Shown here: piece by piece, positions 1,069-53,361 of the stretch
How the letters are laid out: each line of letters begins with the position of its first letter
How positions within the stretch are numbered: position 1 is the first letter of the stretch
Virus record (IMG/VR): IMGVR_UViG_3300037845_000029
Location: 1 to 53,725 of that record
Reading direction: 5' to 3' (one strand)
DNA: 53,725 nucleotides
Source of the DNA: a virus
The notes under the pieces: model-generated
What the model was told of the DNA's origin: nothing
Database searches by the model: none
Seen by the model: the letters and a program-made list of their open reading frames with translations, nothing else
Made by a program: the position numbers and the translations under genes

Positions 1069-1611
1069 ATGATTCGTAGGACAGTCCGAGACCGCACCGG
1101 CATCTACGCGCACGTCTCGACATCGAGCGACGATCCGCAAGACTGGGAAGCCATTTTCGCCGCCAAGTCCGGAGAACTCGATCAGGTCGAGCGCTTGGCC
1201 GCTTTGGAACGCTTCGCCAGGAGATCGCTGGGAACCGCACCGGAAGGCTCCCCACAAGAGCAAGACGCGAGCGATCTTCTGGCGAGCTTGCGGTTCATCC
1301 GGTACTGGATCGACGCGGGAGACGCCATCTCAGCGGCAATGGAAGGCATTCGGGCTGGCTCCATCGCCGAACGGATGCAGGTACGCTCGTTCGAGCCGCT
1401 GGTCGAGCGCGGCCGGCGGGCCGCCAGCGCCGCCCAGCGTGCCGGCCGCGCTCGCAGCGAGAATCTCGCACCAAAACGGCGGAAAATACGCGAGCGCTTC
1501 GCCATCGTGCATCCAGCGGAGGTCAAAAGCCGCACGGCGGCGGTCCATCGCGTGGCCCGCGAACTGGGAATCAAGCCGCGGACGGTCTGGCGGGCCCTGG
1601 AAGCCTGCTAA
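1069..1611 (+). CDS. Hypothetical protein with C-terminal helix-turn-helix
   Basis: 180 residues. The last 25 or so (VARELGIKPRTVWRALEAC) read as a helix-turn-helix of the kind found in replication or regulatory proteins. The middle is alanine and arginine rich and probably helical. A DNA-binding protein between the tail tube and tail chaperone genes is unexpected; it may be a regulator carried in the late operon or a morphogenesis factor. No family assigned. Confidence 0.55.
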   Translation: MIRRTVRDRTGIYAHVSTSSDDPQDWEAIFAAKSGELDQVERLAALERFARRSLGTAPEGSPQEQDASDLLASLRFIRYWIDAGDAISAAMEGIRAGSIAERMQVRSFEPLVERGRRAASAAQRAGRARSENLAPKRRKIRERFAIVHPAEVKSRTAAVHRVARELGIKPRTVWRALEAC

Positions 1612-1703
1612 ACCGCTGTCAACCCGCCAATCTGGCACAAAACAGCCGGTAAACTGCCTGCTGCGGACTATTTTGCGGAACCAAGCACAGCGGAGCGACC
1701 GAA

Positions 1704-2123
1704 ATGAGCGAATCCGACACCAACGGCGCGCCTTCCGAGCCGTTGACGGCCGAGCAGATGGGCCAAAAGGCCCTGGCTTTTGAAGACCGAGACCACGAAT
1801 TCACCACGGCCTTCGGCATGAAGGTCTGGGTCTGGCAGATGCCACTGGAAAACCGCGACAAATTCGACCTGTGGAACGCGGAATCACGGCAAAAAGAGGA
1901 CATCACGGCCTTCCGCACGCGGCTGGTCGTCGAAACCTGCTGCGATGAGCAGGGCAACCCGATTTTCAAGCTCGACGACATGCCGGCGCTGGCCAAAAAG
2001 GGCCACACGATCCACCGCCTGAGCAAAATGGCATTGCGGATCAACAAGATGCGGACGCAGGACCTGGAGGACGAGGAAAAAAACTCCGAAAGCGCTACCG
2101 CAGGCTCTTCGCCCTCCGGCTAG
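1704..2123 (+). CDS. Tail assembly chaperone, unshifted product (gpG-like)
   Basis: 139 residues in the zero frame, ending at TAG 2121-2123. By analogy with lambda gpG, this short form would coat the tape measure protein during tail assembly while the frameshifted long form recruits tail tube subunits. It is acidic, lies directly upstream of the tape measure gene and carries a heptanucleotide slip site (2078-2084) near its 3' end, the three hallmarks of the tail chaperone pair. Sequence similarity to lambda gpG is not claimed. Confidence 0.75.
   Translation: MSESDTNGAPSEPLTAEQMGQKALAFEDRDHEFTTAFGMKVWVWQMPLENRDKFDLWNAESRQKEDITAFRTRLVVETCCDEQGNPIFKLDDMPALAKKGHTIHRLSKMALRINKMRTQDLEDEEKNSESATAGSSPSG
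2078..2084 (+). other. Programmed -1 ribosomal frameshift site
   Basis: The heptamer A AAA AAC, in phase with the upstream chaperone gene (codons GAA AAA AAC), fits X XXY YYZ exactly. The downstream -1 frame is open from 2084 to 2503 and encodes a recognisable chaperone T-like domain. No clear stimulatory hairpin was worked out by eye. Confidence 0.8.
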
Positions 2124-2503
2124 CGCTGGCCCTTGGCCGTTACAACGTCGATGAGATGCTCGCCGAGGCGCCGCCCAGGCAGCTCGACGAGTGGTTGGCC
2201 TATAACCGCATCGAACCCTTCGGCGCGCTGCGGGGCGACATGCAGGCCGGCATGATTTGCAACCACATCATCGGCGCGGCCGGCGGAGACTTCCGGCCGG
2301 TTCACGAGTACATTCTGAAATTCGGCCGCGACCCTGAAGACCAGATGGACCCCGACGAGATCGAACACCAACTGATGCTCTTCGCCCAGGCACACAACGC
2401 CCGGCTGGCGGAACAGGCCGGCGGCGCGATGAACGTCGATGTTCAGGGGATTCAGCGCGAGATTGCGGCGGCAAGGACCGTCGCGAGGGACGCCGCGCCA
2501 TGA
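2084..2503 (+). CDS. Tail assembly chaperone, frameshift extension (gpT-like domain)
   Basis: This -1 frame has no good start of its own at its 5' end, but continues the upstream gene if ribosomes slip at 2078-2084. The joined product would be 127 + 139 = 266 residues. The extension begins KRYRRLFALRLALALGRYNV and continues DEWLAYNRIEPFG, which matches the pattern of the phage tail T-type chaperone domain (ALRLG...ELxEWxAYxRxEPFG). An internal ATG at 2156 would lose the conserved start of that domain. The gene ends in an ATGA overlap with the tape measure gene at 2500. Confidence 0.8.
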   Translation, partial: LRKRYRRLFALRLALALGRYNVDEMLAEAPPRQLDEWLAYNRIEPFGALRGDMQAGMICNHIIGAAGGDFRPVHEYILKFGRDPEDQMDPDEIEHQLMLFAQAHNARLAEQAGGAMNVDVQGIQREIAAARTVARDAAP

Positions 2504-5283
2504 GCACGATTGCAAATATCACCGTCGCGCTCTCTGCCGACATCTCGAACTTCATTTCCGGCACGAAGAAGTCGGCCACGGCCATCAACGACCTGATGCG
2601 TGCGGCGAACAAGGCGACGACCGAGGGATTGTCGCCGCTTCAGCGCTACGAAGCGGCGATGGACCTGCTCGGGACGAAACTCTGGGAAGGCCAAGCCGCC
2701 GTGTTGGCTTACGACAAGGTCACGAAGTTTCTGGCCGAGACACTTGCCAAGGAAACTGCGGCTGTGAATGCCGCCGCAGAGGCTACTGCCAGGCTTCGCG
2801 CCAAACAGGAAGCTACGTTGCAAGTCGCTGTCGCAATGATGGCACAAATGGGCCAGGGTCGCTGGAACTCCTGGGAAGCCGGACTAGCGAACATTTCCAA
2901 TGCAACGCTTGCCGCAGAAGCAAGAACGAAGGCGCTATCTGCTGCTGCGACGGCAATGATGGCGCAAATGTCCAAGGGTTCATGGAACTCATGGGAAGCT
3001 GGGCTAGCTAATATCGCAAATGCCACTGCCGCAGCCGAAGCAAGAACGAAGGCACTGTCCGCGGCTGTGACGACAATGATGGCGCAAATGGGCCAAGGGC
3101 GTTGGAGCTCGTGGGCCGCAGGTCTGGCAAATATCACGAATGCCACGAACGCCGCCGCCGCCGCAAACCAGCGACTTGCGACAGTTGTTGTGCCAATGAT
3201 GGCGCAGATGGGCCAAGGTCGCTGGAACTCGTGGGCCGCAGGCTTGGCAAACATCACGAATGCTACCGCCGCTGCCAAAGCACGAATGGACGATGTCTCT
3301 AATGCGGGCCGCGGCGGTTTCCGAATGATCGCGTCGGCGATCAGCCCAACCATCGGCCAAATGGCGTCCTTCGGCGTCGGCGTCGGCGCGGCGATCTTGG
3401 CCATCAACGAGTTTAAGAACGCCATGTCGGCCATCGTCTCGACCGGCGTGAACCTGATGGTAACGTTCGAGAACGTCGAGGTATCGCTCTCGACGATGTA
3501 CAAATCCGCCGGCAAGGGAAAGGCGGTCTTGGAAGAGCTGAAGGACTTGGCCGCCAAGACGCCGATGGAGTTCCCTGAAATCGCGCGCTCGGCGAAGTCT
3601 CTGGCAGCCGTTGGCATCGAAGCGAGGGACCTGCAAGGTCATTTGAAGCTGATGACCGAACTGGCGGCTGGTTCGGGAACGAGCATCGAAGAATTGACGC
3701 GCATCTATACCCGCAACCTGATTCAAGGGCGGCAGTACACTCGCGACATCAACGAGTTCAGCAACGCCGGCATCCCGATTTGGACGCAACTCTCCAAGGT
3801 GATGAAGGTCTCCAATGACGAAGTGCATCAGATGGTGACGGACGGCAGGATCGGAGCGCACGAATTCCAAATGGCGCTGATCGAACTGGTAGACGCTGGC
3901 GGACGATGGCACGGCGCTTCCGAGGCCGCGCAGAAGAGCACGCAAGGGCTGATGGCGACCTTGAAGGATTACACAGGGTTCATTTTGGAGGGCATGACGA
4001 AGGCCACTGCGGAAGCCCTGCACTTCAAGGATGTCATTGGCGGAATCAACCAGTCGATGGCGCGAGAACGCGACGTATGGCAGACGACGACGGCCGACGC
4101 ATTTGGTTTCTTCGATGTTTTCGGTGCCGGATTAGGCTCGTTTTTGAGGTTCAATGAAACCCAAAAGAAAATCGCCGCCCTGCAAAAGATGGACGCGCAG
4201 GAGCGTTTGGATTACGACGCCGCAAAGAAGGCCAATGACCACGACGAAATGGATCGGGCGGCAAAGAAGATTCGCCAAATCCAGTTGATGATTGCCTTAC
4301 ATCAGGGTGAGATGCTGAGTGCGCAGGACGTAAAACTGCTGGCCGAGCGCGGCAAGGAAGAATTACCGACTCCCTTCAAGGGCGGCGACGCCGCCGCACG
4401 TGCCGAATTGGAGAAGAACAAGGAGTCGTTTGACAAGCTGCACGATGCGATGATTAAGGCGTGGGACGCAGCACGGTTCGGCAAGGAAGCGATGGACCGA
4501 CTCGCCTACGCCAACGCGGCGATCGCAGCCGGCAATCGGACAAGCATCGGCGAAATCATGGGTCATTACGACATGGTCGTAGCCGAGACGAAGGCGGCTG
4601 AAGAACGGACGAAGGCAGAAAAGGACGCCGACGCCGAACGAAAGAGACACACGGAGACCTATGACAAGTTGATCTTGAGCCTCAAGCTGAAGATCGCGCT
4701 GCTCGATAAGGATGCCGAAGCTGAGAGGGCTGCGCAATTGGCGGCCGAAGGAAACAACGAGACTGAAGTTCGTCGCATCCTGCTCCTAGAAAAGCAATTT
4801 CGAGTCAGGAAGGAGATGCTTGATGCCCAGAAGGAAGCCGCCGACAAGAACAAAAAGGATTTCGACGACATGAAGAGGCGGGCCGATGAACTCAAAAAGT
4901 CCCTCGAAACACCCGAGGCGGCACAGCAACGCAAGGAAAAGGAACTAGACAAGCTCTTCGACAAGGGACTGCTGACGCCCGATGAACGAGACGCCTTGCA
5001 AAACAAGATCGACCTGGAAATGCAGGAGGCACTGGAGCGCGATAAGAAAAAGACCTTCGGCCCGGCCGCCAAAGCGTTCACCCCCGCCGCCGAATTCGGT
5101 TCCAAGGAAGCCTACAGCATCATGGTCCGGGCGATGGGCGGCTTCGGCGGCAAGAACGAGGCCGAGAAGCAACGCAAGCGGATCATCGAAGAGTTGCGGC
5201 AGGCGAACATCGAAAACCGTCGGCGACACAACGAGAACAGGCAACCCAAGGTCATCAACATTGCCGGCGGGGGTGTGTTCTGA
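2500..5283 (+). CDS. Tape measure protein
   Basis: 927 residues, the longest gene in the window and directly after the chaperone pair, as usual for the protein that sets tail length. Residues about 300-500 hold the common tape measure domain (KTPMEFPEIARSAKSLAAVG, followed by IEELTRIYTRNLIQGR and INEFSNAGIPIWTQLS). A hydrophobic glycine-rich segment lies near residues 270-310. Residues 113-272 are four 40-residue tandem repeats. The C-terminal third is strongly charged and probably coiled coil. The protein is likely ejected with the DNA. It overlaps the next gene by a TGATG junction. Confidence 0.92.
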   Translation: MSTIANITVALSADISNFISGTKKSATAINDLMRAANKATTEGLSPLQRYEAAMDLLGTKLWEGQAAVLAYDKVTKFLAETLAKETAAVNAAAEATARLRAKQEATLQVAVAMMAQMGQGRWNSWEAGLANISNATLAAEARTKALSAAATAMMAQMSKGSWNSWEAGLANIANATAAAEARTKALSAAVTTMMAQMGQGRWSSWAAGLANITNATNAAAAANQRLATVVVPMMAQMGQGRWNSWAAGLANITNATAAAKARMDDVSNAGRGGFRMIASAISPTIGQMASFGVGVGAAILAINEFKNAMSAIVSTGVNLMVTFENVEVSLSTMYKSAGKGKAVLEELKDLAAKTPMEFPEIARSAKSLAAVGIEARDLQGHLKLMTELAAGSGTSIEELTRIYTRNLIQGRQYTRDINEFSNAGIPIWTQLSKVMKVSNDEVHQMVTDGRIGAHEFQMALIELVDAGGRWHGASEAAQKSTQGLMATLKDYTGFILEGMTKATAEALHFKDVIGGINQSMARERDVWQTTTADAFGFFDVFGAGLGSFLRFNETQKKIAALQKMDAQERLDYDAAKKANDHDEMDRAAKKIRQIQLMIALHQGEMLSAQDVKLLAERGKEELPTPFKGGDAAARAELEKNKESFDKLHDAMIKAWDAARFGKEAMDRLAYANAAIAAGNRTSIGEIMGHYDMVVAETKAAEERTKAEKDADAERKRHTETYDKLILSLKLKIALLDKDAEAERAAQLAAEGNNETEVRRILLLEKQFRVRKEMLDAQKEAADKNKKDFDDMKRRADELKKSLETPEAAQQRKEKELDKLFDKGLLTPDERDALQNKIDLEMQEALERDKKKTFGPAAKAFTPAAEFGSKEAYSIMVRAMGGFGGKNEAEKQRKRIIEELRQANIENRRRHNENRQPKVINIAGGGVF
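2836..3315 (+). repeat. Four 120-bp in-frame tandem repeats in the tape measure gene
   Basis: Copies start at 2836, 2956, 3076 and 3196, exactly 120 bp apart. Each encodes 40 residues beginning MMAQM and carrying G(R/S)W(N/S)SW, AGLANI and NAT. Third-position differences show they are not an assembly artefact. Unit gain or loss would change tail length by a fixed step. Confidence 0.9.
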
Positions 5284-5624
5284 TGATCGACCTGCGCAGC
5301 ATGGAAAAAGGAACCGCCAAGGTCGAGCGCCCCAGCCGCACGACGGACCTGGCCAAGCTCTTCAAGGCCGCGCCGTCCCGCGAGCGCGAAGCTGCGCTCA
5401 TCGCATTCGTCAAGCGAACCAGCGTGACCTGCATCGGCATTGCCAAGGAAGAGCCGGGCAAGATCACGTTCCAGTGCGGCGTGCCCGACCCCGACGCGCC
5501 GCCAGATCAGCCGCGATTCATGCCAGCGCATTACGAATGGACCTACGACCTCGACACCGGCATCCTGAAAGCGGCGAAGCTTATCCCGCTCTGGCAGCCT
5601 AGCACGCAGGGAGGCCAGCCATGA
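5283..5624 (+). CDS. Hypothetical tail protein
   Basis: 113 residues, start ATG overlapping the stop of the tape measure gene, end overlapping the next gene by 4 bases. The second half is beta-like (VTCIGIAKEEPGKITFQCGV). Position just after the tape measure is typical of distal tail or baseplate components. No motif recognised. Confidence 0.7.
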   Translation: MIDLRSMEKGTAKVERPSRTTDLAKLFKAAPSREREAALIAFVKRTSVTCIGIAKEEPGKITFQCGVPDPDAPPDQPRFMPAHYEWTYDLDTGILKAAKLIPLWQPSTQGGQP

Positions 5625-6535
5625 GCGTTGTTTGGGCACATGAGCGAGCCGGCGGGCGCGGAGGGCGAGAAAGCCTCACCCCAGCGCGGACCTGGGCCAC
5701 ACGGAACTATACCCGTCACTTTCAGGTCTACACCAGCGACCAGAACGATGGGCCGCAGACCATCAGCGCCTCGGGGGCGCTCCCGTCGCTTCTGGACCTC
5801 TATATCGCCGGCAACGACGTCGACCTGGGGGCCGTCTGCTCGAACATCAGCTACAACCAACCCAACAACAACCAGCCGAAAATTTGGGAAGTTGTCTGCG
5901 AGTACGAGGGTGCCGACAACCCTCTGACCAGGCCGCACTTGATCCGCACGGGGTTCGCCACCCGCGAGCGGATCGTCTGGCAGGACGTGTACCAAGGCCC
6001 GCGCGGCAACGCCGTGCCGATCGTCAACTCGGCCGGGGTCTATTTCGACCCCCCGGTGACGATCAACGAGAACCAGCCGCTCGTCTCCATCGAGCGCAAC
6101 GAAGTCATCACCATCGACCCGGTGGCCTTGGACCTGGCCTACGGCAACACGACCAACGCCGACTTCTTCTTCGGTGCGGCACCCAATACAGTGCTTTGCC
6201 TGGGGATCACCGGCGGCGACGCCTTCGAGGGCGGTATCTGGTACTGGAATATGCACTACGAATTCTGCTACCGTTCGGATGGCTGGGTGAGATACCTGCT
6301 CGACCAGGGCTTGATGTGGTGGGATGCAACGATCCCAGCCGGCGGCACGAAACCCAACGGCTACACGGATGCTACTGACTCCAAAGGAAACGTCACCACG
6401 GAGCCGCAAGCCCTCGACGGAAAGGGTAAGCTATTGGCGACGACGCTTGGGCGATTGCCTGGCCCGAACGACTTCATTTTCCTTCCCTACAATGTTTTCG
6501 TCAGCGTGCCCTTCGCGCCGCTGGCACTGCCATAA
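5621..6535 (+). CDS. Putative distal tail / tip protein
   Basis: 304 residues, rich in aromatic residues, Asn and Gly (GGIWYWNMHYEFCYRSDGW). It follows the tape measure gene and an accessory gene, where distal tail and tip proteins are found. It starts in an ATGA overlap with the previous gene. The composition suits a secreted or virion beta-protein. No catalytic motif is seen; the role is inferred from position. Confidence 0.6.
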   Translation: MSVVWAHERAGGRGGRESLTPARTWATRNYTRHFQVYTSDQNDGPQTISASGALPSLLDLYIAGNDVDLGAVCSNISYNQPNNNQPKIWEVVCEYEGADNPLTRPHLIRTGFATRERIVWQDVYQGPRGNAVPIVNSAGVYFDPPVTINENQPLVSIERNEVITIDPVALDLAYGNTTNADFFFGAAPNTVLCLGITGGDAFEGGIWYWNMHYEFCYRSDGWVRYLLDQGLMWWDATIPAGGTKPNGYTDATDSKGNVTTEPQALDGKGKLLATTLGRLPGPNDFIFLPYNVFVSVPFAPLALP

Positions 6536-8850: not shown

Positions 8851-9182
8851 TCGAAGCCGATTGTCAATTCGATCGAACCGAAGTCGGAATCCGCTGTCGG
8901 CAATGCGGATATGAGCGCAATTGGAATCGGCCAGATTTGCCAAAGCGGAACTGCGGCAAGTTTGTCAGGTCGACCGATACGACATCTTCCACCCGCGCCA
9001 AGTGCCGCCACCTCGGCGACGAGCTACGCCGCCAGGAATGCCCGACCTGCCAGGGGACCGTCAAGCTCAAGGTCTTCGCCTGCGCGATTCACGGAGAATG
9101 CACGCCCGAGACGCCGCTGGAAGGCGTGGCCTGCTGCGCGTCGTGCCCGGACTGGGCGAATCCCGCCACATCCGATTCGTAG
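8847..9182 (+). CDS. Small zinc-finger-like protein at the end of the tail operon
   Basis: 111 residues from ATG 8847 (ATGA overlap with the previous stop). Several Cys pairs: CRQCG near residue 17, ECPTCQG near 64 and ACCASCPDW near 100. The C-terminal half (KVFACAIHGECTPETPLEG) resembles small Cys-rich proteins often found beside planctomycete phage tail genes, which is recall and not a search. It converges on the minus-strand gene ending at 9067, overlapping by 116 bases. Confidence 0.6.
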   Translation: MIEADCQFDRTEVGIRCRQCGYERNWNRPDLPKRNCGKFVRSTDTTSSTRAKCRHLGDELRRQECPTCQGTVKLKVFACAIHGECTPETPLEGVACCASCPDWANPATSDS

Positions 9183-9711
9183 GCGGGTCGTCGTCCACAA
9201 ACGAGCCGTCCTCGTTGCGGATTTGGTCGATGCGCCGGCCCAGCCGGACGGATAGGACGCACGCGCCGGAGTGCGGCTCGAGCGGAAGCTCGCCGAATCG
9301 CGCCTCGTCGCGCCGGCGCTGTTCAAGCAACTCCTCGCGGGCGTCGTGTTGCTGTTGCAAATAGGGATCGTTGGTCATCATAGGTTCGCCTTCTCCAACT
9401 ATGGCATCAAGGACATAATCAAGTTCTCCAAGGGCCATCGCGTGCGAACCGAGCGTCTGGTACAGTCGGTCGCCAGAGGCCCAAACGATCTTCCCGTCGA
9501 CGACGACGGCAACAAGTGGCGAGCACGACCGTAGCGGTTCCGGCACGCTCGCGCCGAAACCACAGGACCACATGCGCGGCACGTATCCTGACTTGCAACC
9601 CTCGGCGTTGAACCAACGGAGGCAGTAGGCACGGTCCTCTTGGCAGAGCGACCAGAACGCCACGCGATCGCCGTACTTCTGATGGGCTTGAACCAAGCCG
9701 CGGGTTGCCAT
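9067..9711 (-). CDS. Thioredoxin-fold protein, part after the in-frame TGA
   Basis: 214 residues if started at ATG 9711. The first 110 continue a thioredoxin-like fold from the upstream frame: after the TGA come PGYGMATRGLVQAHQKYGD and RVAFWSL, then VVVDGKIVWASGDRL. It is in phase with the upstream ORF (9724-10080); only TGA 9724-9726 separates them. After about residue 112 the sequence becomes Gln/Arg/Glu rich; an internal ATG near 9379 with a GGAGAAGG site could start a separate small protein. The last 40 codons overlap the opposite gene and look non-coding. Confidence 0.6.
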   Translation of the reverse strand: MATRGLVQAHQKYGDRVAFWSLCQEDRAYCLRWFNAEGCKSGYVPRMWSCGFGASVPEPLRSCSPLVAVVVDGKIVWASGDRLYQTLGSHAMALGELDYVLDAIVGEGEPMMTNDPYLQQQHDAREELLEQRRRDEARFGELPLEPHSGACVLSVRLGRRIDQIRNEDGSFVDDDPPTNRMWRDSPSPGTTRSRPRLPAASRACILRESRRRRP

Positions 9712-9726
9712 CCCGTAGCCCGGTCA
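9685..9726 (-). promoter_or_regulatory. Candidate selenocysteine TGA with bacterial SECIS-like hairpin
   Basis: TGA at 9726-9724 is followed, 24 bases later, by a perfect 6-bp stem GGCTTG/CAAGCC with loop GTT (9699-9685, read on the minus strand). Loop distance from the TGA (about 30 bases), a short loop and a G at its start fit the published bacterial SECIS pattern. A 4-bp CGGG/CCCG hairpin lies between them. No selA, selB or selC is in the window. Confidence 0.4.
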
Positions 9727-10080
9727 CGTGTAGGTCCAGAGGTCTAGCACCACGACGCGCGACCAAGTTGGCTTGCCTTTGATCCAGCCGGCCACTGGAA
9801 AGTCCTCCGGGCACACCAGCGTCCCCACGAGCGGATCGCGACTGCCGATGATGTCGATGGGCCGCAACGCCTTCAGTTCCGCATTGGCCTCATCAAGCTC
9901 TTTTTGGAGAGTTTCGATACGGCGGATCGCCTCCGCGTGGAGAATCCGTTCGTTACGGGGTTCGTTTCGCCATCGCCATATCTGTTTCGTTCCAAGGCAC
10001 GCGGTAACTACAATGGTGAGCACGACCGCAATTGCCTTGGCAACCAGGATAGATCGCGAGAATTGAAAGCGGGGGTTCAT
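9724..10080 (-). CDS. Thioredoxin-fold protein, N-terminal membrane-anchored part
   Basis: 118 residues from ATG 10080. Residues about 10-32 form a membrane segment (ILVAKAIAVVLTIVVTACLG), followed by a helical charged linker and then GWIKGKPTWSRVVVLDLWTYT, the classic lead-in of TlpA/AhpC-type redoxins (WxxxC). The codon that should be the first active-site Cys is TGA (9724-9726), and the rest of the domain follows in the same frame. Either the gene encodes selenocysteine, or this is a nonsense mutation. The expected place of the protein is the periplasmic face of the membrane. Confidence 0.65.
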   Translation of the reverse strand: MNPRFQFSRSILVAKAIAVVLTIVVTACLGTKQIWRWRNEPRNERILHAEAIRRIETLQKELDEANAELKALRPIDIIGSRDPLVGTLVCPEDFPVAGWIKGKPTWSRVVVLDLWTYT

Positions 10081-10319
10081 TGTTTGGCCTCGGCCACAGG
10101 TCGCGGCCAGGGCCCGAAACGCCTTGGGCGCCCTCGCTTTGGCGCCGTCTTGAGCAACTCCCGGCATCGTTCCATGTCGGCATCGTCCAACAGTGTCGAA
10201 GGCGGGATCATGTTCGGCTTCCGCTTGCCGATGCCGTGCGCGAGGCAGAGGCGTTCGAGTCGCTTGTGGTGAACGCCTATGAGTGCGGCCGAGGCTCGGA
10301 TGCTGAGTCGTTTTTCCAT
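10077..10319 (-). CDS. Small helix-turn-helix protein
   Basis: 80 residues from ATG 10319. RASAALIGVHHKRLERLCLA reads as a MerR/excisionase-like helix-turn-helix, followed by a basic tail (KRGRPRRFGP). It is one of a set of similarly built small HTH proteins in this window (18306, 20445, 35553, 47791). It overlaps the redoxin gene start (10080) by 4 bases, so the two form one minus-strand unit. It lies next to the divergent control region and could regulate it. Start at 10334 is also possible. Confidence 0.6.
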   Translation of the reverse strand: MEKRLSIRASAALIGVHHKRLERLCLAHGIGKRKPNMIPPSTLLDDADMERCRELLKTAPKRGRPRRFGPWPRPVAEAKQ

Positions 10320-10486
10320 AGTGGTTTGGAACATTGCAACCCATGTGCCGAAATAGGCAAAAAAACGTGCGCGTTGGGTACACGGTCGTCGGCCGGCCAT
10401 CCACCAAAATGATGACCCGCCTATGGGTGGTTTAGTCGCAACACGTTGTCACTAGCCTAGTTACGACATTTAGCCTTTCGTCTAAT

Positions 10487-18654: not shown

Positions 18655-18775
18655 GGGGATCTCTGGGCATGGCCGGTGCGCGATGGCGGCCGGTTGGGTT
18701 GGCCGAGTTTGGAGAAATCCTAAACGAGACTCGGCACGGCACATCCGTGACAGGTTCGAGTCCTGTCCATCCCCA
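18655..18775 (+). other. tRNA-3'-end-like segment, possible attachment core or decayed tRNA
   Basis: 18749-18767 forms a T-arm (GACAGG / CCTGTC around TTCGAGT), followed by ATCCCCA, which can pair with GGGGAT at 18655-18660. A CACGG/CCGTG variable-arm-like stem lies just before. The length (121 bases) and lack of a normal D-arm and anticodon loop argue against a working tRNA. Such 3' halves are typical phage attachment cores. A 39-residue ORF (18669-18788) covers the same bases and may be fortuitous. Confidence 0.4.
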
Positions 18776-18785
18776 GCGATCCCTA

Positions 18786-21338: not shown

Positions 21339-22193
21339 ATGGCAAAGAAAGTCGAGTTTCACCCTCTGGCCAACGCCTTCCCCTTGATGGACAAGAAGGA
21401 ATTCGATGCGCTCGTTATGGACATCGAGGACAACGGCTTGGCCGAAGACATCATCAACCACGACGGGCGAATCTTGGATGGGCGCAACCGCTACAACGCC
21501 TGTCTTGAGGCCAAGGTTGAGCCCAGGTTTCGCGATTGGGATGGGGAGGGCAAGACGCCGCTTGGGTTCGTCGTTATGAAGAACTTGCACCGCCGGCATC
21601 TGTCCGAGACGCAACGCGCATCGGTCGGAGCGGCGCTAGCTTTGTTCAAAAACGGAGAAATCCCCGAAGAAGGCGACGATTCGGCAAATTTGCCGCCTTC
21701 CGATGAGGAGGGATCGACGCTCACGCAAGAGGACGCCGCCGACCTCTTGAACGTCAGCGAACGAAGCATCCGCAGCGCCGCCAAGGTGCTACAGGATGGA
21801 TCAAAGGAACTCCAAGAGGCGATGAAGGCCGATGAGATTCCGGTCTCTAAAGCTGCTGAACTCGCGAAGTTGTCGAAGTCCGAGCAGAACGCCGAGCTTC
21901 GCCGAATCCGCGAGGAGCGCGAAGAGAAGGAACGCGAGAAGGCGGAACGCGAAGCCGAGCGACAAGCCGCCAAGGAAGCTGGCGAGGCGCCCAAACAGCC
22001 TACCGCCGCACAACGCAAGGAGACGATTCGCGCCGAATGCGACCGCGTAATTGCCGCCATCGAGTCGTTGCACAAGCGCGCCGAGAAGCTTTCGGAGATG
22101 TGCGGCGCCGACGACAAGTTTGTGAAGGGTATCTTCAAGGGGCTCGACACCGCTTCGCAAAACGCCTTCGACCTCAAACGGAGCAAGAGGTAG
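21339..22193 (+). CDS. ParB-like nuclease/partition domain protein
   Basis: 284 residues from ATG 21339 (GGAG 8 bases upstream). Residues 1-95 are a ParB N-terminal domain: EFDALVMDIEDNGLAEDI, ILDGRNRYNACLE and FVVMKNLHRRHLSETQRA. A central HTH follows (TQEDAADLLNVSERSIRSAA). Residues 180-225 are a very charged coiled coil. Phage ParB-like proteins may bind DNA, nick it or act as regulators; partner ParA is absent from the window. A second ParB domain occurs in the gene ending at 27565. Confidence 0.85.
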   Translation: MAKKVEFHPLANAFPLMDKKEFDALVMDIEDNGLAEDIINHDGRILDGRNRYNACLEAKVEPRFRDWDGEGKTPLGFVVMKNLHRRHLSETQRASVGAALALFKNGEIPEEGDDSANLPPSDEEGSTLTQEDAADLLNVSERSIRSAAKVLQDGSKELQEAMKADEIPVSKAAELAKLSKSEQNAELRRIREEREEKEREKAEREAERQAAKEAGEAPKQPTAAQRKETIRAECDRVIAAIESLHKRAEKLSEMCGADDKFVKGIFKGLDTASQNAFDLKRSKR

Positions 22194-31371: not shown

Positions 31372-32058
31372 ATGCGACCGTTTTACGAGACACACGACAA
31401 GGGCGACCACGTTTTCGCGGAAACGATGGCCGGCTCGAGCATCGACGAATGCGCGAGAGAGGCCATCGAAATGTGCGGCAACAAGCCGGTGCGATTCGAG
31501 TTCAACGAGATCATGCTTGAGGCTAAGGCCGGCGTCACGTCAGGTGACATCGTGGCGGAATACTGGCGCGAGTCGAACCGCCGCCACGAAGAATACATCA
31601 AGTCGCCCGAGTACAAGGCGCAGCAAGAGCGGTACGAAGCCAAGGAATCGTCGCGGCGGTCAGCGCTGGCTGACGCACTCGCCTGCGCGCCGGCGCAAAT
31701 GACCGTCAACCCCGGCAAACTCAACGATTGGAACACCTGGTGCGCGACGAATTCCAAAGATGGCTATAGCGCGGCCGTAGTCGCCTACGCCGAGCGCTGG
31801 GCCAGGATCATGGAGAGCCGAATTGGCGGTGGCGCGACCGTCGATGAATGTGCCGATGCCACTTCGACGCTCGCCGATGAGGAAGGCGTCACCGGCTTCA
31901 TGTACGGGTGCGCCGTTGGCGGACTGGCCAAGTTTTGGATTCACGGCGAGGCGCTTCGACGCTGGCACAACCTGAAAACGCAGGTCGGCAATGAGGGCGA
32001 GAAGGCCAATGAGAACGGCGGTGTGCTCAATCCGGCAATGCTCGTGGTGGGAAAATGA
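31372..32058 (+). CDS. Hypothetical protein
   Basis: 228 residues, start set by CAAGGAG upstream. N-terminal domain (SIDECAREAIEMCGNKPVRF, EFNEIML) is alpha/beta; the C-terminal half is helical (ADEEGVTGFMYGCAVGGLAK). No motif recognised. It overlaps the HNH gene by 4 bases. Confidence 0.7.
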   Translation: MRPFYETHDKGDHVFAETMAGSSIDECAREAIEMCGNKPVRFEFNEIMLEAKAGVTSGDIVAEYWRESNRRHEEYIKSPEYKAQQERYEAKESSRRSALADALACAPAQMTVNPGKLNDWNTWCATNSKDGYSAAVVAYAERWARIMESRIGGGATVDECADATSTLADEEGVTGFMYGCAVGGLAKFWIHGEALRRWHNLKTQVGNEGEKANENGGVLNPAMLVVGK

Positions 32059-33449: not shown

Positions 33450-33661
33450 TGCCCAGCGAAATCACGCCGGAGTTATTCGAGGCGGCTTTTGACCGAAGGT
33501 GGAAGGAGTTTTCTGATTCGCTGCCGCCGTAGTCGCTTCCCAGTCTTGTCGAAGCGATGAAGAAGGTGTGGCGACATGGGTTCGCGACTGGTTTCCTTGA
33601 TCGGCATCAGTGGGATGACGTCGACCAGCCGAAGCTGGTGCGAGTGGGGATTTACGACTAA
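33449..33661 (+). pseudogene. Small gene interrupted by an in-frame TAG
   Basis: ATG 33449 overlaps the previous stop and reads MPSEITPELFEAAFDRRWKE, then SDSLPP, then TAG (33530-33532). The same frame continues SLPSLVEAMKKVWRHGFATG and ends at TAA 33659-33661, overlapping the next ATG. The continuous coding character and intact junctions on both sides suggest one 70-residue protein with a nonsense codon or suppressed amber. Confidence 0.55.
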
Positions 33662-35556
33662 TGATCGGCCGTGACCTATCCAAGTGGTTCGACGAGGCCA
33701 AGCAGGACGGCAACCCGTACCTAACGGAGTGGTTCGCCGCCGCCTTCATCACCGAGCGCGACCACGAACTTTTTATGACCGACCGCGCCGCGTGGATGAA
33801 ATCGCTCCCTCAGCCAACCGAACATGGCCTGCGCAGACAACTCGCCGGGAAATACTCCTGGGCGATCCCCTGTGACGCTGCCTTGCGTTCGATTGCCGAT
33901 CTCGGGCCAATCGTCGAGATGGGCGCGGGTTGCATGGTTGGCGACACTCTCGTTGCCACATCAGAGGGCATAGTTCGCTTGGACGAGATTGCGGCGTCAT
34001 CGACAATTTCGGGACGCAACGGACCATCTCTTGTGGTTCGCAAATGGAACAAGGGACCACAACTGACCATTCGCCTCACGCTCGACGGCGGCCATCAGGT
34101 CACTGTTTCTGAGCGCCATCGCGTGTTGTGCCATGACGACGCCGGCCATCAGCTATGGAAGCGCGTCGTCGACTTGAAAAAAACGGATCGAGTGCTAATC
34201 CCAATCGGTGCAGATTTATGGGGACCACCGCAAAAGGTTCCACAGCCAAAGCGACTTGGCGGTCGTGCCACACAATTCAAGGTGAGCCAGATTTTCAATG
34301 AAGACATGGCTGAGATGATCGGAATTATGATTGCTGACGGTGACTCCGACAAGAACAGAATTCGGATAAGCAACAGAGAACATGCTGATCGCATCGCCGC
34401 GCTAGGCGCAAATGTCTTTGGGTGCCGGCTTCCGTTTATCGACAAAAAACGGCCATCCAGCGCAACGTATTTCATCGGTCGCGCACTATCGCAGTGGGCA
34501 ACCGAAATCGGAATGGTATGGGGCGCGGAACATAAGGTAGTACCCGGCGTCGCGTTAAGATCGCCGCGCGGGTGTCAATTGAGGTTATTGGCCGGTCTCT
34601 CTCTCGACTCGACATACGAACCAAAACGACACCGATGGTGTTTTCGGTCGAGAAGTTACAAGGTCGCGGATGTAGTCGCAGCGATTCTCCTGAATCTTGG
34701 TATCTTTTGTTGCAGAATAATCGGAAAAGAACGCAGGCCCGCAGGAACCCGTCGCGCCGCTCATGGTGACACGTTTGGAGTAACCGTCACCGGAGAATGG
34801 CTTGACAAGTTATCTCTTATTGTTCCTTTACAGCATTCGATCGAGCGGCAATGCCGAGCACAATCGCCCTATGTCGAGCGCATCATAGCGCCATCGCTTT
34901 TTGACGAACTAAGAATAGAAAACGGCTGGGCGGAACGATTGACAGCGGATCAGGTAAAACGAGGCATGGGGGCGTCTCGCAGAAAAGTTGAATCGCTCCT
35001 TGAAAAGTCGCGCCCCTGTGCCGCGAAAGACCGCCTGAACGCTCTTCATATCGCTGGAATCTGGTCCGGGGTGCGTTCGGTTGTGCCGTCTATATTGCGT
35101 CCAGTGTTTGATTTAACTGTGCCAGATGGACAAGCGTACGCAGCGACGACCATGAACCACAATACCGGTTATTGGGCTTGGCTGTTGCGCAAGCGGGGTG
35201 CCGACGTGTTGGCCTACGACGAGCTTCCGCCAGGGCCGAATTCCGGCAACCACTACCATGAGGAAAACCCCTGCTGGATTCAGGTCCAGCGCGGCAAACC
35301 GAACGCGCTCAAGGAACACGCCGACCGGGCGCTGATGCTCTGCTGGCCGCCGTACAACGAACCGATGGCGTGGCAGAGCCTTTGCAAATATCGTGGTCGG
35401 CATGTGGTTTTCATCGGCGAGGGACAAGGCGGCTGCACCGGAGACGAGAGGTTTTTCAAGAAGCTCGACCGGGAGTTCCGCGAAGTGGCCGAGGTCGAGA
35501 TTCCGCAGTACGAGGGGCTGCACGACTACCTGACGATTTACGAGAGGAAGAAGTGA
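33661..35556 (+). CDS. SAM-dependent methyltransferase-like protein split by an intein
   Basis: 631 residues as translated, 220 after splicing. Extein parts are residues 1-90 and 502-631. Joined, they read PIVEMGAG-TGYWAWLLRKRG, the glycine-rich SAM-binding motif I, then DVLAYDE (motif II acidic residue) and ADRALMLCWPPYNEPMAW, where CWPP may replace the usual NPP. The target could be DNA, RNA or protein. Until the intein leaves, the SAM site is broken, so splicing controls activity. TAATG overlap with the preceding gene. Confidence 0.8.
   Translation: MIGRDLSKWFDEAKQDGNPYLTEWFAAAFITERDHELFMTDRAAWMKSLPQPTEHGLRRQLAGKYSWAIPCDAALRSIADLGPIVEMGAGCMVGDTLVATSEGIVRLDEIAASSTISGRNGPSLVVRKWNKGPQLTIRLTLDGGHQVTVSERHRVLCHDDAGHQLWKRVVDLKKTDRVLIPIGADLWGPPQKVPQPKRLGGRATQFKVSQIFNEDMAEMIGIMIADGDSDKNRIRISNREHADRIAALGANVFGCRLPFIDKKRPSSATYFIGRALSQWATEIGMVWGAEHKVVPGVALRSPRGCQLRLLAGLSLDSTYEPKRHRWCFRSRSYKVADVVAAILLNLGIFCCRIIGKERRPAGTRRAAHGDTFGVTVTGEWLDKLSLIVPLQHSIERQCRAQSPYVERIIAPSLFDELRIENGWAERLTADQVKRGMGASRRKVESLLEKSRPCAAKDRLNALHIAGIWSGVRSVVPSILRPVFDLTVPDGQAYAATTMNHNTGYWAWLLRKRGADVLAYDELPPGPNSGNHYHEENPCWIQVQRGKPNALKEHADRALMLCWPPYNEPMAWQSLCKYRGRHVVFIGEGQGGCTGDERFFKKLDREFREVAEVEIPQYEGLHDYLTIYERKK
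33931..35163 (+). mobile_element. Intein with LAGLIDADG homing endonuclease
   Basis: 411 residues (91-501 of the precursor). Starts with Cys in CMVGDTLVATSEGIVRLDEI (splicing block A). Block B-like is GGHQVTVSERHRVL. Two dodecapeptide motifs mark the endonuclease: EMIGIMIADGDSDKN and LLAGLSLDSTYEPKR. The end reads FDLTVPDGQAYAATTMNHN, with His-Asn at the junction and Thr as the first C-extein residue. AT content is higher than in the flanks. All splicing residues appear present. Confidence 0.9.
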
Positions 35557-51320: not shown

Positions 51321-51493
51321 GTTTCAGTTTCCTTTGGCGGCACGCCGGCTTGATCTCGCTTTGGACGGAACGCTGGTCACTGCACATCGGCGTCAAGTTT
51401 CAATTCTGGCAGTGGGAGCCGCATGACCGAGACCTGCTTTACACGACAACGGGTGTTGGACCGGCGCTGCTGCTGGCGTGGGAGAACGGATGA
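51317..51493 (+). CDS. 58-residue protein upstream of the effector
   Basis: ATG 51317 in an ATGA overlap with the LexA-like gene; TGA 51491-51493 overlaps the effector start. SFLWRHAGLISLWTERWSLH and IGVKFQFWQWEPHD are Trp-rich and beta-like. The coupling makes translation likely. Function unknown; an accessory or inhibitor of the effector is only a guess. Confidence 0.6.
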   Translation: MSFSFLWRHAGLISLWTERWSLHIGVKFQFWQWEPHDRDLLYTTTGVGPALLLAWENG

Positions 51494-53361
51494 TGGCAAA
51501 ATTTCACGACTCCGACCCGTCGATCAACTGGCTGGCCCACGCGAAAGCGCCGACGACCGGCAAAGAGCTGGTCGAGGCGCAGTTCTCGGCGGCTCATCGC
51601 TACTACAACACGCTTATCGAAATCGAGCGCTGCCGCCAGCAAAAGTACCTTGAGCTGCGACGCAAGCTATTCCCGGCGTTGGAAGCCGCCGAGGTCGAAT
51701 ACGCCAGGCTTGACGGCGAGTTGTCGGCGGTTCGAGACGAGATCAAACAGGCCAACGCCAAGACGCACAAACGCTCGACCGGCACGTCGGAGCAGCGCGC
51801 CGAGATCAAGAGGCTCAAGGGCGAGCGAACGGCGTGCGCGAAGGTCGCCAAGGAAGTCCGCGAGAGGGCCAAGGATTCGGCCGCGCTGGCGAACGGCGCC
51901 GAGGCCATCAACGACGAGGCCCGCGCCGCCGTGCGCGCGGCACGGGCTGCGACTGAAACATTCTGGTGCTCATATTTGCAGGTGGAAGCGGCCGTCCAAC
52001 AGGCGAGCAAGGATTCCAAGCCGCTCCCGCCGCGCTTCAAGCGCTGGACCGGCGACGGAACCGTGTCGGTGCAACTGCAAGGCGGCCTGTCATGGTCCGG
52101 GCTGCTTGCCGGCGACGACACGCGCGCCAGGCTCGTCGCGCGAGATTGGTCAAGCATCGAGGCGAACACGCGGGCGCCGAATGGGAAACACGACAAGCCG
52201 AGTCCCAGCGGCAGGCGCGCCAAGCGACGATTTGATCTTTGGCTTCGCGTCGGCAGCGACGGTCGCAAGCCGGTCTGGGCCGTTTTTCCGATCGTCCTCT
52301 ATCGTGAACCGATAGGCGCGGATGAGTTGCTGGTTAAGTGGATTCACGTCGACCGCATCAAGCGGGCCACCGCGTATGTCTGGCAGGCTCGTTTCGTATT
52401 GGCCAAGAAAAGCGGCTGGGCCAAGACCTGTTCGCCGTCCGGCACGGTCGGCGTCGACGTCGGCTGGCGATTGGTGCCCGATGGCCTGCGCGTCGCGTAC
52501 TGGGTAGGTAGCGATGGACGTGAAGGGCAACTTGTCTTACCGCAGGAGTTGCTCAACGCCAAGGACGACATGGAGGCCATCCAGACGATTCGCGACAAGA
52601 ATTTCAGCGCGATGAAGCTGCGCTTGGCGCGCTGGTTCAAGCGTGCGCAGGGCGAACTCGTAATGGAGGGCGAGCTGCGGCTGCCGACGGTGGCCGCCAA
52701 GTTGCCAGCGTGGATGACGGATTCGCCTGGACTGGACAGGGACGGAAAGCCAAAAGCGTCGATCGTCGCCGGTATGCCGCATTGGAAGAGCCCTGGCCGG
52801 GCGGAATCGCTCTATCGTCAATGGCGCGACAACCGTTTCACCGGAGACGACGATGGCTTTCGCATGTTGAGCGACTGGCGCAACGGCAGCGGACGGTCGC
52901 ACGAGCACGGGGACTTGCACCTTTGGCGCTTCCAAACGGGTAGGCGGATTCGGGCCTTGAAGCGGCGCAAGGACATCTACCGGAAGTTCGCGCGCGAGTT
53001 GGCCCAGAATTACGCCGTCTGCCGCGTGGAGAAACTGAATCTGGCGGAGATGCGGCGGCGACCGGAAGCCGAAGATGACAAGGCAAGTGGCGCAGTGGTC
53101 ATGTTCCGCAACCTGGCGGCCAATGGCGAGCTGCTGGAATGCCTGCGGCAAAGCGGGATGGCGGTCGAGGCATTGCCGGCGGAGAACACGACGCGCATGC
53201 ACTTGGCCTGCGGCCACATCAGCAGTTGGTCGGATGAAGAGCGCGCGGCGGTGATGGTGACGTGCCAATCGTGCGGTGAAAGCTACGACCAGGACGCTCA
53301 AAGCGCTGCTCTTTTGCTGGCCGGCGGTGTCGCGAGCGTCGAGGTGGTAGGCACTGTTTGA
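51490..53361 (+). CDS. Compact Cas12/TnpB-type RuvC effector (type V, subtype unassigned)
   Basis: 623 residues from ATG 51490 (ATGA overlap, GGGAG upstream); ATG 51478 and 51493 are alternatives. Residues 20-155 are helical/coiled coil (HRYYNTLIEIERCRQQKYLE). The split RuvC nuclease is complete: RuvC-I TVGVDVGWRLVPDGLRVAYW with Asp323; RuvC-II AVCRVEKLNLAEMRRR with Glu514; zinc finger HLACGH (Cys574, His576) with CQSCG (Cys592, Cys595); RuvC-III YDQDAQSAALLL with Asp602. The CGH half replaces the usual first CxxC. A CRISPR-like array follows 91 bases downstream, so an RNA-guided nuclease is more likely than a transposon TnpB. No cas1/cas2 is visible. Confidence 0.85.
   Translation: MMAKFHDSDPSINWLAHAKAPTTGKELVEAQFSAAHRYYNTLIEIERCRQQKYLELRRKLFPALEAAEVEYARLDGELSAVRDEIKQANAKTHKRSTGTSEQRAEIKRLKGERTACAKVAKEVRERAKDSAALANGAEAINDEARAAVRAARAATETFWCSYLQVEAAVQQASKDSKPLPPRFKRWTGDGTVSVQLQGGLSWSGLLAGDDTRARLVARDWSSIEANTRAPNGKHDKPSPSGRRAKRRFDLWLRVGSDGRKPVWAVFPIVLYREPIGADELLVKWIHVDRIKRATAYVWQARFVLAKKSGWAKTCSPSGTVGVDVGWRLVPDGLRVAYWVGSDGREGQLVLPQELLNAKDDMEAIQTIRDKNFSAMKLRLARWFKRAQGELVMEGELRLPTVAAKLPAWMTDSPGLDRDGKPKASIVAGMPHWKSPGRAESLYRQWRDNRFTGDDDGFRMLSDWRNGSGRSHEHGDLHLWRFQTGRRIRALKRRKDIYRKFARELAQNYAVCRVEKLNLAEMRRRPEAEDDKASGAVVMFRNLAANGELLECLRQSGMAVEALPAENTTRMHLACGHISSWSDEERAAVMVTCQSCGESYDQDAQSAALLLAGGVASVEVVGTV

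Follow-up and report, generated by a model that had tools for sequence, protein, structure and literature searches.

The closest described counterparts of the locus analysed here are the thioredoxin-like proteins of the TlpA/ResA/DsbE and DipZ types (WTYTCINC/WATWCxxC), the thioredoxin-like bacterial selenoproteins (UxxC thioredoxin, Prx-like, TlpA-like UGC and UxxS/UxxT, as listed in PMC13188914) and three huge phages that carry tRNA-Sec genes, for which no selenoprotein is reported (PMC10747093). According to PMC13188914, most selenoproteins display a thioredoxin-like fold and motifs devoid of a resolving Cys are known (UxxS, UxxT, UxxG, UxxV), both of which count in favour of a selenoprotein at the present locus. 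The rules given there for a bacterial SECIS are a loop of 3-9 nt with a G in the first two positions, a stem of 4-16 bp, a spacing of 16-37 nt and an energy of at most -7.5 kcal/mol. In one test, ~13% of the known selenoprotein genes were missed by the canonical SECIS model (PMC12013277), and the lack of a canonical SECIS is therefore compatible with selenocysteine. The standard selenoprotein filter requires at least 2 Cys homologues, and single-sequence cases are treated as candidates only because of possible sequencing error (PMC1088965). No report of a phage-encoded selenoprotein was found in the literature searched.

The window, i.e. the whole stretch of DNA analysed, corresponds to an entire IMG/VR record (53,725 bases). 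It carries genes for a tape-measure protein, a tail assembly chaperone, RecE/RecT-like proteins, a DnaB-like helicase, RusA and a Thoeris-inhibitor-like protein, and is therefore attributed to a tailed phage. On the plus strand, 31372-32058 encodes a protein with a longer N-terminal part whose C-terminal half matches the type I Thoeris inhibitor Tad4 (E 5.8e-27 to Pfam PF25186); an anti-defence role of this gene is likely. The protein of 33661-35556 (plus strand) is distantly similar (20-26% identity) to DNA polymerases of phages, and its residues 125-501 give a weak match for intein splicing (E 2.5e-5). The sole match of the 627 residues encoded by 51478-53361 (plus strand) is a C-terminal TnpB/Cas12f-like TNB domain, the N-terminal part being without match.

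Reading frame and its in-frame TGA

The gene under study is a thioredoxin-like frame of the minus strand (9067..10080), defined by sequence, codon usage and profile comparison. It starts at ATG 10080, spans 337 codons plus a stop and contains one in-frame TGA at codon 119 (9724..9726), the next stop being the TGA at 9069-9067. The start is credible because a GAGG lies 7 nt 5' of the ATG (CGAGGCCAAACAATG) and because the ATG overlaps, as ATGA, an upstream ORF of 107 aa (10077..10400, minus strand). This ORF is helix-turn-helix-like, by eye only, and gave no family match with Pfam or NCBIfam.

Codon-usage scores were trained on the 13 larger frames of the window and calculated in 150-base steps. 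The thioredoxin-like frame outscores the other five frames from ~9150 to 10050, the TGA included, and its scores are near their peak at the TGA itself (9.0 for 9600-9750 and 8.0 for 9675-9825). The codon-position GC is similar on either side (0.61/0.44/0.69 before the TGA and 0.68/0.52/0.72 after it). Five in-frame stops of the window, the codon-119 TGA among them, have coding-like flanks that outscore the other frames. Another of the five, at 22191, simply marks the border between two genes that share a frame; the codon-119 TGA sits within a motif and not at such a border. Direct observation thus covers the frame, the coding character of the sequence flanking the TGA and the place of this codon in the motif, and an in-frame TGA inside a coding frame, as found in selenoprotein genes, is present. 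TGA is also the stop of 11 of the 13 larger frames checked, several of them with overlapping starts. Since it is the normal stop of the contig, a global reassignment of TGA was ruled out, a point in favour of an interrupted gene.

The coding signal fades near 9190 and the frame itself is open to 9067, its last ~116 bases overlapping an opposing Cys-rich gene (8853..9182, plus strand) whose product shares 53% identity over 59 residues with a protein of locus L001, found in a search for related phages by neighbouring genes. Decay is suggested because the 3' end runs into a gene conserved in L001; the run-on past 9190 to 9067 has the look of a lost stop, bearing in mind that phage genes can overlap. 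No match to the thioredoxin-like gene was found in L001.

The preferred reading, held tentatively and at a little under even probability, is that of a phage accessory gene interrupted at its active-site codon by a point substitution to TGA. The product would have been a membrane-anchored thioredoxin-like protein, composed of an N-terminal hydrophobic segment, a coiled coil and a thioredoxin-like domain. One base substitution would have turned the active-site codon into TGA; translation would most likely end there and leave a 118-residue membrane/coiled-coil fragment without the redox site, the downstream half being the remnant of a presumably recent loss. A possible restart, ATG 9711, has no ribosome-binding site and is located inside the strong hairpin described below. 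Against an interruption, a random nonsense change seldom strikes the nucleophile codon exactly, and, the TGA aside, ~335 codons of the frame are intact and score well for codon usage before and after it.

Likeness to the thioredoxin active site

The first-pass annotation had aligned VVVLDLWTYT with the thioredoxin/TlpA motif and placed the TGA on the first redox Cys (WTYT-TGA-PGY), a placement borne out by the frame, by codon usage across the TGA and by profile comparison. The profile was assembled from ResA, DsbE, DipZ, SOQ1 and NHLRC2 domains and one hand-written consensus. With the TGA read as Cys, VVVLDLWTYTCPGYGMATRGLVQAHQKYGDR was aligned to this ResA/DsbE/DipZ-type profile with an hhalign probability of 94.5 over 32 columns; the probability was 74 with an X at the TGA and also 74 for the pre-TGA part alone, and the best of 100 shuffles reached 5.7. 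In a genome-wide control, all 466 TGA sites of the window that are flanked on either side by 20 or more open codons were scored alike. The codon-119 TGA obtained 47.0 and the next best context 19.6, and the motif is therefore considered real and not a product of chance. The TGA falls on the redox-active Cys of a known fold at the level of this motif only.

The second active-site Cys position is occupied by Tyr122 (TAC, 9715..9717) in both the sequence and the alignment, as had been noticed at first, and the active site reads TGA-P-G-Y instead of CxxC. As the second redox position is lost too, an interrupted gene is favoured; the same Tyr counts against a selenoprotein. The frame had further been said to continue through the thioredoxin fold. 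It does run on with a coding signal, and a continuation of the fold is plausible, but the post-TGA part is not recognised by the profile: taken alone, it gave no significant match and 53 of 200 shuffles were equally good. No thioredoxin match was obtained for the family profiles of Pfam and NCBIfam up to E=10, nor in PHROG or PDB sequences. Two single-sequence AlphaFold models, with pLDDT of 41 and 39, are unusable for the fold; a helix at residues 46-71 is modelled with confidence (pLDDT 86-94 for most of its length).

This helix, the N-terminal hydrophobic segment, the good start site and the coupling to the upstream ORF would all suit a 118-residue product that is functional itself, or a leaky TGA read through as Trp to give little full protein. 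Such an outcome is judged very unlikely: the short product would stop within the strand of the motif (VVVLDLWTYT), where a functional terminus would be unusual, and the downstream half is still coding in character.

Hairpins, Sec genes and related sequences

A 6-bp stem with a GTT loop ~30 bases past the TGA had been proposed in the first-pass annotation as a fit to bacterial SECIS spacing. The hairpin exists (GGCTTG-GTT-CAAGCC, 9685..9699, minus strand, loop 30 nt past the TGA) and its loop, G and spacing agree with the SECIS rules, but its own energy of -6.4 kcal/mol misses the -7.5 kcal/mol limit and it passes the rules in one of 7 fold lengths. A hairpin equal to it follows ~12% of the 1,382 TGA sites of the window. 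Since the same rules, applied to predicted folds, are satisfied at 10-16% of all TGA sites of this GC-rich contig, the GTT hairpin carries no weight, and its background frequency is a point against a selenoprotein.

A stronger hairpin (9691..9725, minus strand) begins in the TGA and is built of 13 bp with one mismatch and a 7-nt loop, ATGGCAA (-19.2 kcal/mol). It excludes the GTT hairpin and displaces it in 40-60 nt folds. Its z is -3.35 over 40 nt and weakens to between -0.9 and -1.5 when other lengths are folded; an equally stable hairpin follows only 0.65% of the TGA sites (40 nt), in a comparison where the hairpin was chosen post hoc. This stability speaks for a selenoprotein and against an interruption. 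Conversely, a spacing of 12 nt and first two loop positions without G depart from the 16-37 nt and G rules of PMC13188914, which weighs against a selenoprotein. The Rfam SECIS models gave no match.

The first-pass annotation had also called for a check of selA, selB and selC in the phage or its host. On the contig, no SelA, no SelB and, by ARAGORN, no tRNA were found. The best tRNA-Sec candidate (18682-18771) was not accepted, as it scored 17.6 bits against a cut-off of 47 and no UCA anticodon was visible. The interruption is favoured because no canonical SECIS rises above background and no Sec genes were found on the contig. The surrounding segment (18656-18783, plus strand) specifies a tRNA-like RNA with a T-arm (ACAGG-TTCGAGT-CCTGT), an acceptor-like pairing (GATGG/CCATC, then CCCA), an extra arm (CACGG-CACAT-CCGTG) and a GAAA-tetraloop hairpin in place of the anticodon loop. 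This RNA is enclosed by an outer stem (MFE -66.6, z -3.5) and flanked by repeats of AACCGGGGCCAA; it was missed by ARAGORN and gave no match in phages.

A planctomycete host is suggested, as a guess only, by the Cys-rich gene next to the frame and by a prepilin-like protein of L001; a plasmid search did not confirm this link. Some planctomycetes possess a full Sec system and others do not; Sec genes are present in Gemmata, Isosphaera and two further planctomycetes, which counts for a selenoprotein (PMC4807772).

No homologue was retrieved by tblastn from phages and plasmids, even with the E limit raised to 10 for the core, or by pattern-based searches of viral and genome contigs, and all 17 matches of a degenerate-DNA search of viral contigs (WTYT-TGN-PG, D[LF]WTxT-TGN-P) were unrelated. 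The comparison initially suggested, Cys in place of the TGA among homologues, thus yielded nothing in the viral, phage, plasmid and genome collections, and the gene does not pass the filter of at least 2 Cys homologues (PMC1088965); the lack of a Cys or Sec homologue there counts against a selenoprotein. A second contig spanning the codon-119 TGA was not found either, which leaves room for a metagenome consensus error or minority variant, the true codon being TGC, TGT or TGG in a gene for a thioredoxin-like protein that is either ordinary or redox-dead. One base would then explain everything, and single-sequence cases are held to be candidates only (PMC1088965). Such an error is judged improbable; it is made less likely by IMG/VR contig L002 (4,792 bases), 100% identical to window positions 1270-6061, away from the TGA and possibly assembled from the same reads.

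Balance of readings and comparison with known systems

The exact position of the TGA on the redox Cys and the unbroken coding signal across it also suit a functional selenoprotein, in which host SelB and tRNA-Sec would decode the TGA as selenocysteine. The product would be a membrane-anchored thioredoxin-like selenoprotein with a single selenol (U-P-G-Y), and might act as a one-selenol peroxidase or reductase. With its unusual U-x-x-Y site, its non-standard SECIS starting at the UGA and its reliance on host Sec machinery, this reading is regarded as possible though doubtful. Selenocysteine insertion at codon 119 is a candidate reading only. The weights are judgements and were not computed: the largest, short of one half, goes to the interrupted gene, a clearly smaller one to the selenoprotein, a low one to a base error and a marginally lower one to all other explanations. 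An interruption by a single substitution, or an erroneous base, is accordingly considered somewhat more likely than a selenoprotein. If TGA does encode selenocysteine, the phage would encode a selenoprotein and its host range would be tied to selenium metabolism. Should the gene prove to be simply interrupted, the case is one of ordinary decay of an accessory phage gene and calls for caution on SECIS-like hairpins in GC-rich DNA.

With the three huge tRNA-Sec phages (PMC10747093), the present contig has in common the phage context and a possible Sec link; it differs from them in having no tRNA-Sec above the cut-off. Like the thioredoxin-like bacterial selenoproteins of PMC13188914, the gene has a TGA at the catalytic Cys, whereas UxxY is absent from the consulted rows of the motif table there. 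It further differs from them by its phage location and by its lack of a canonical SECIS and of a homologue. In comparison with the TlpA/ResA/DsbE and DipZ-type proteins, the phage gene has TGA for the first Cys and Tyr for the second, some six further Cys residues within the domain and no Pfam or NCBIfam match, and the identity is 19%, over 32 residues only. The same hydrophobic strand, the W-T-x-T-C motif and the start of the following helix are nevertheless shared with these proteins, as is the N-terminal hydrophobic anchor.
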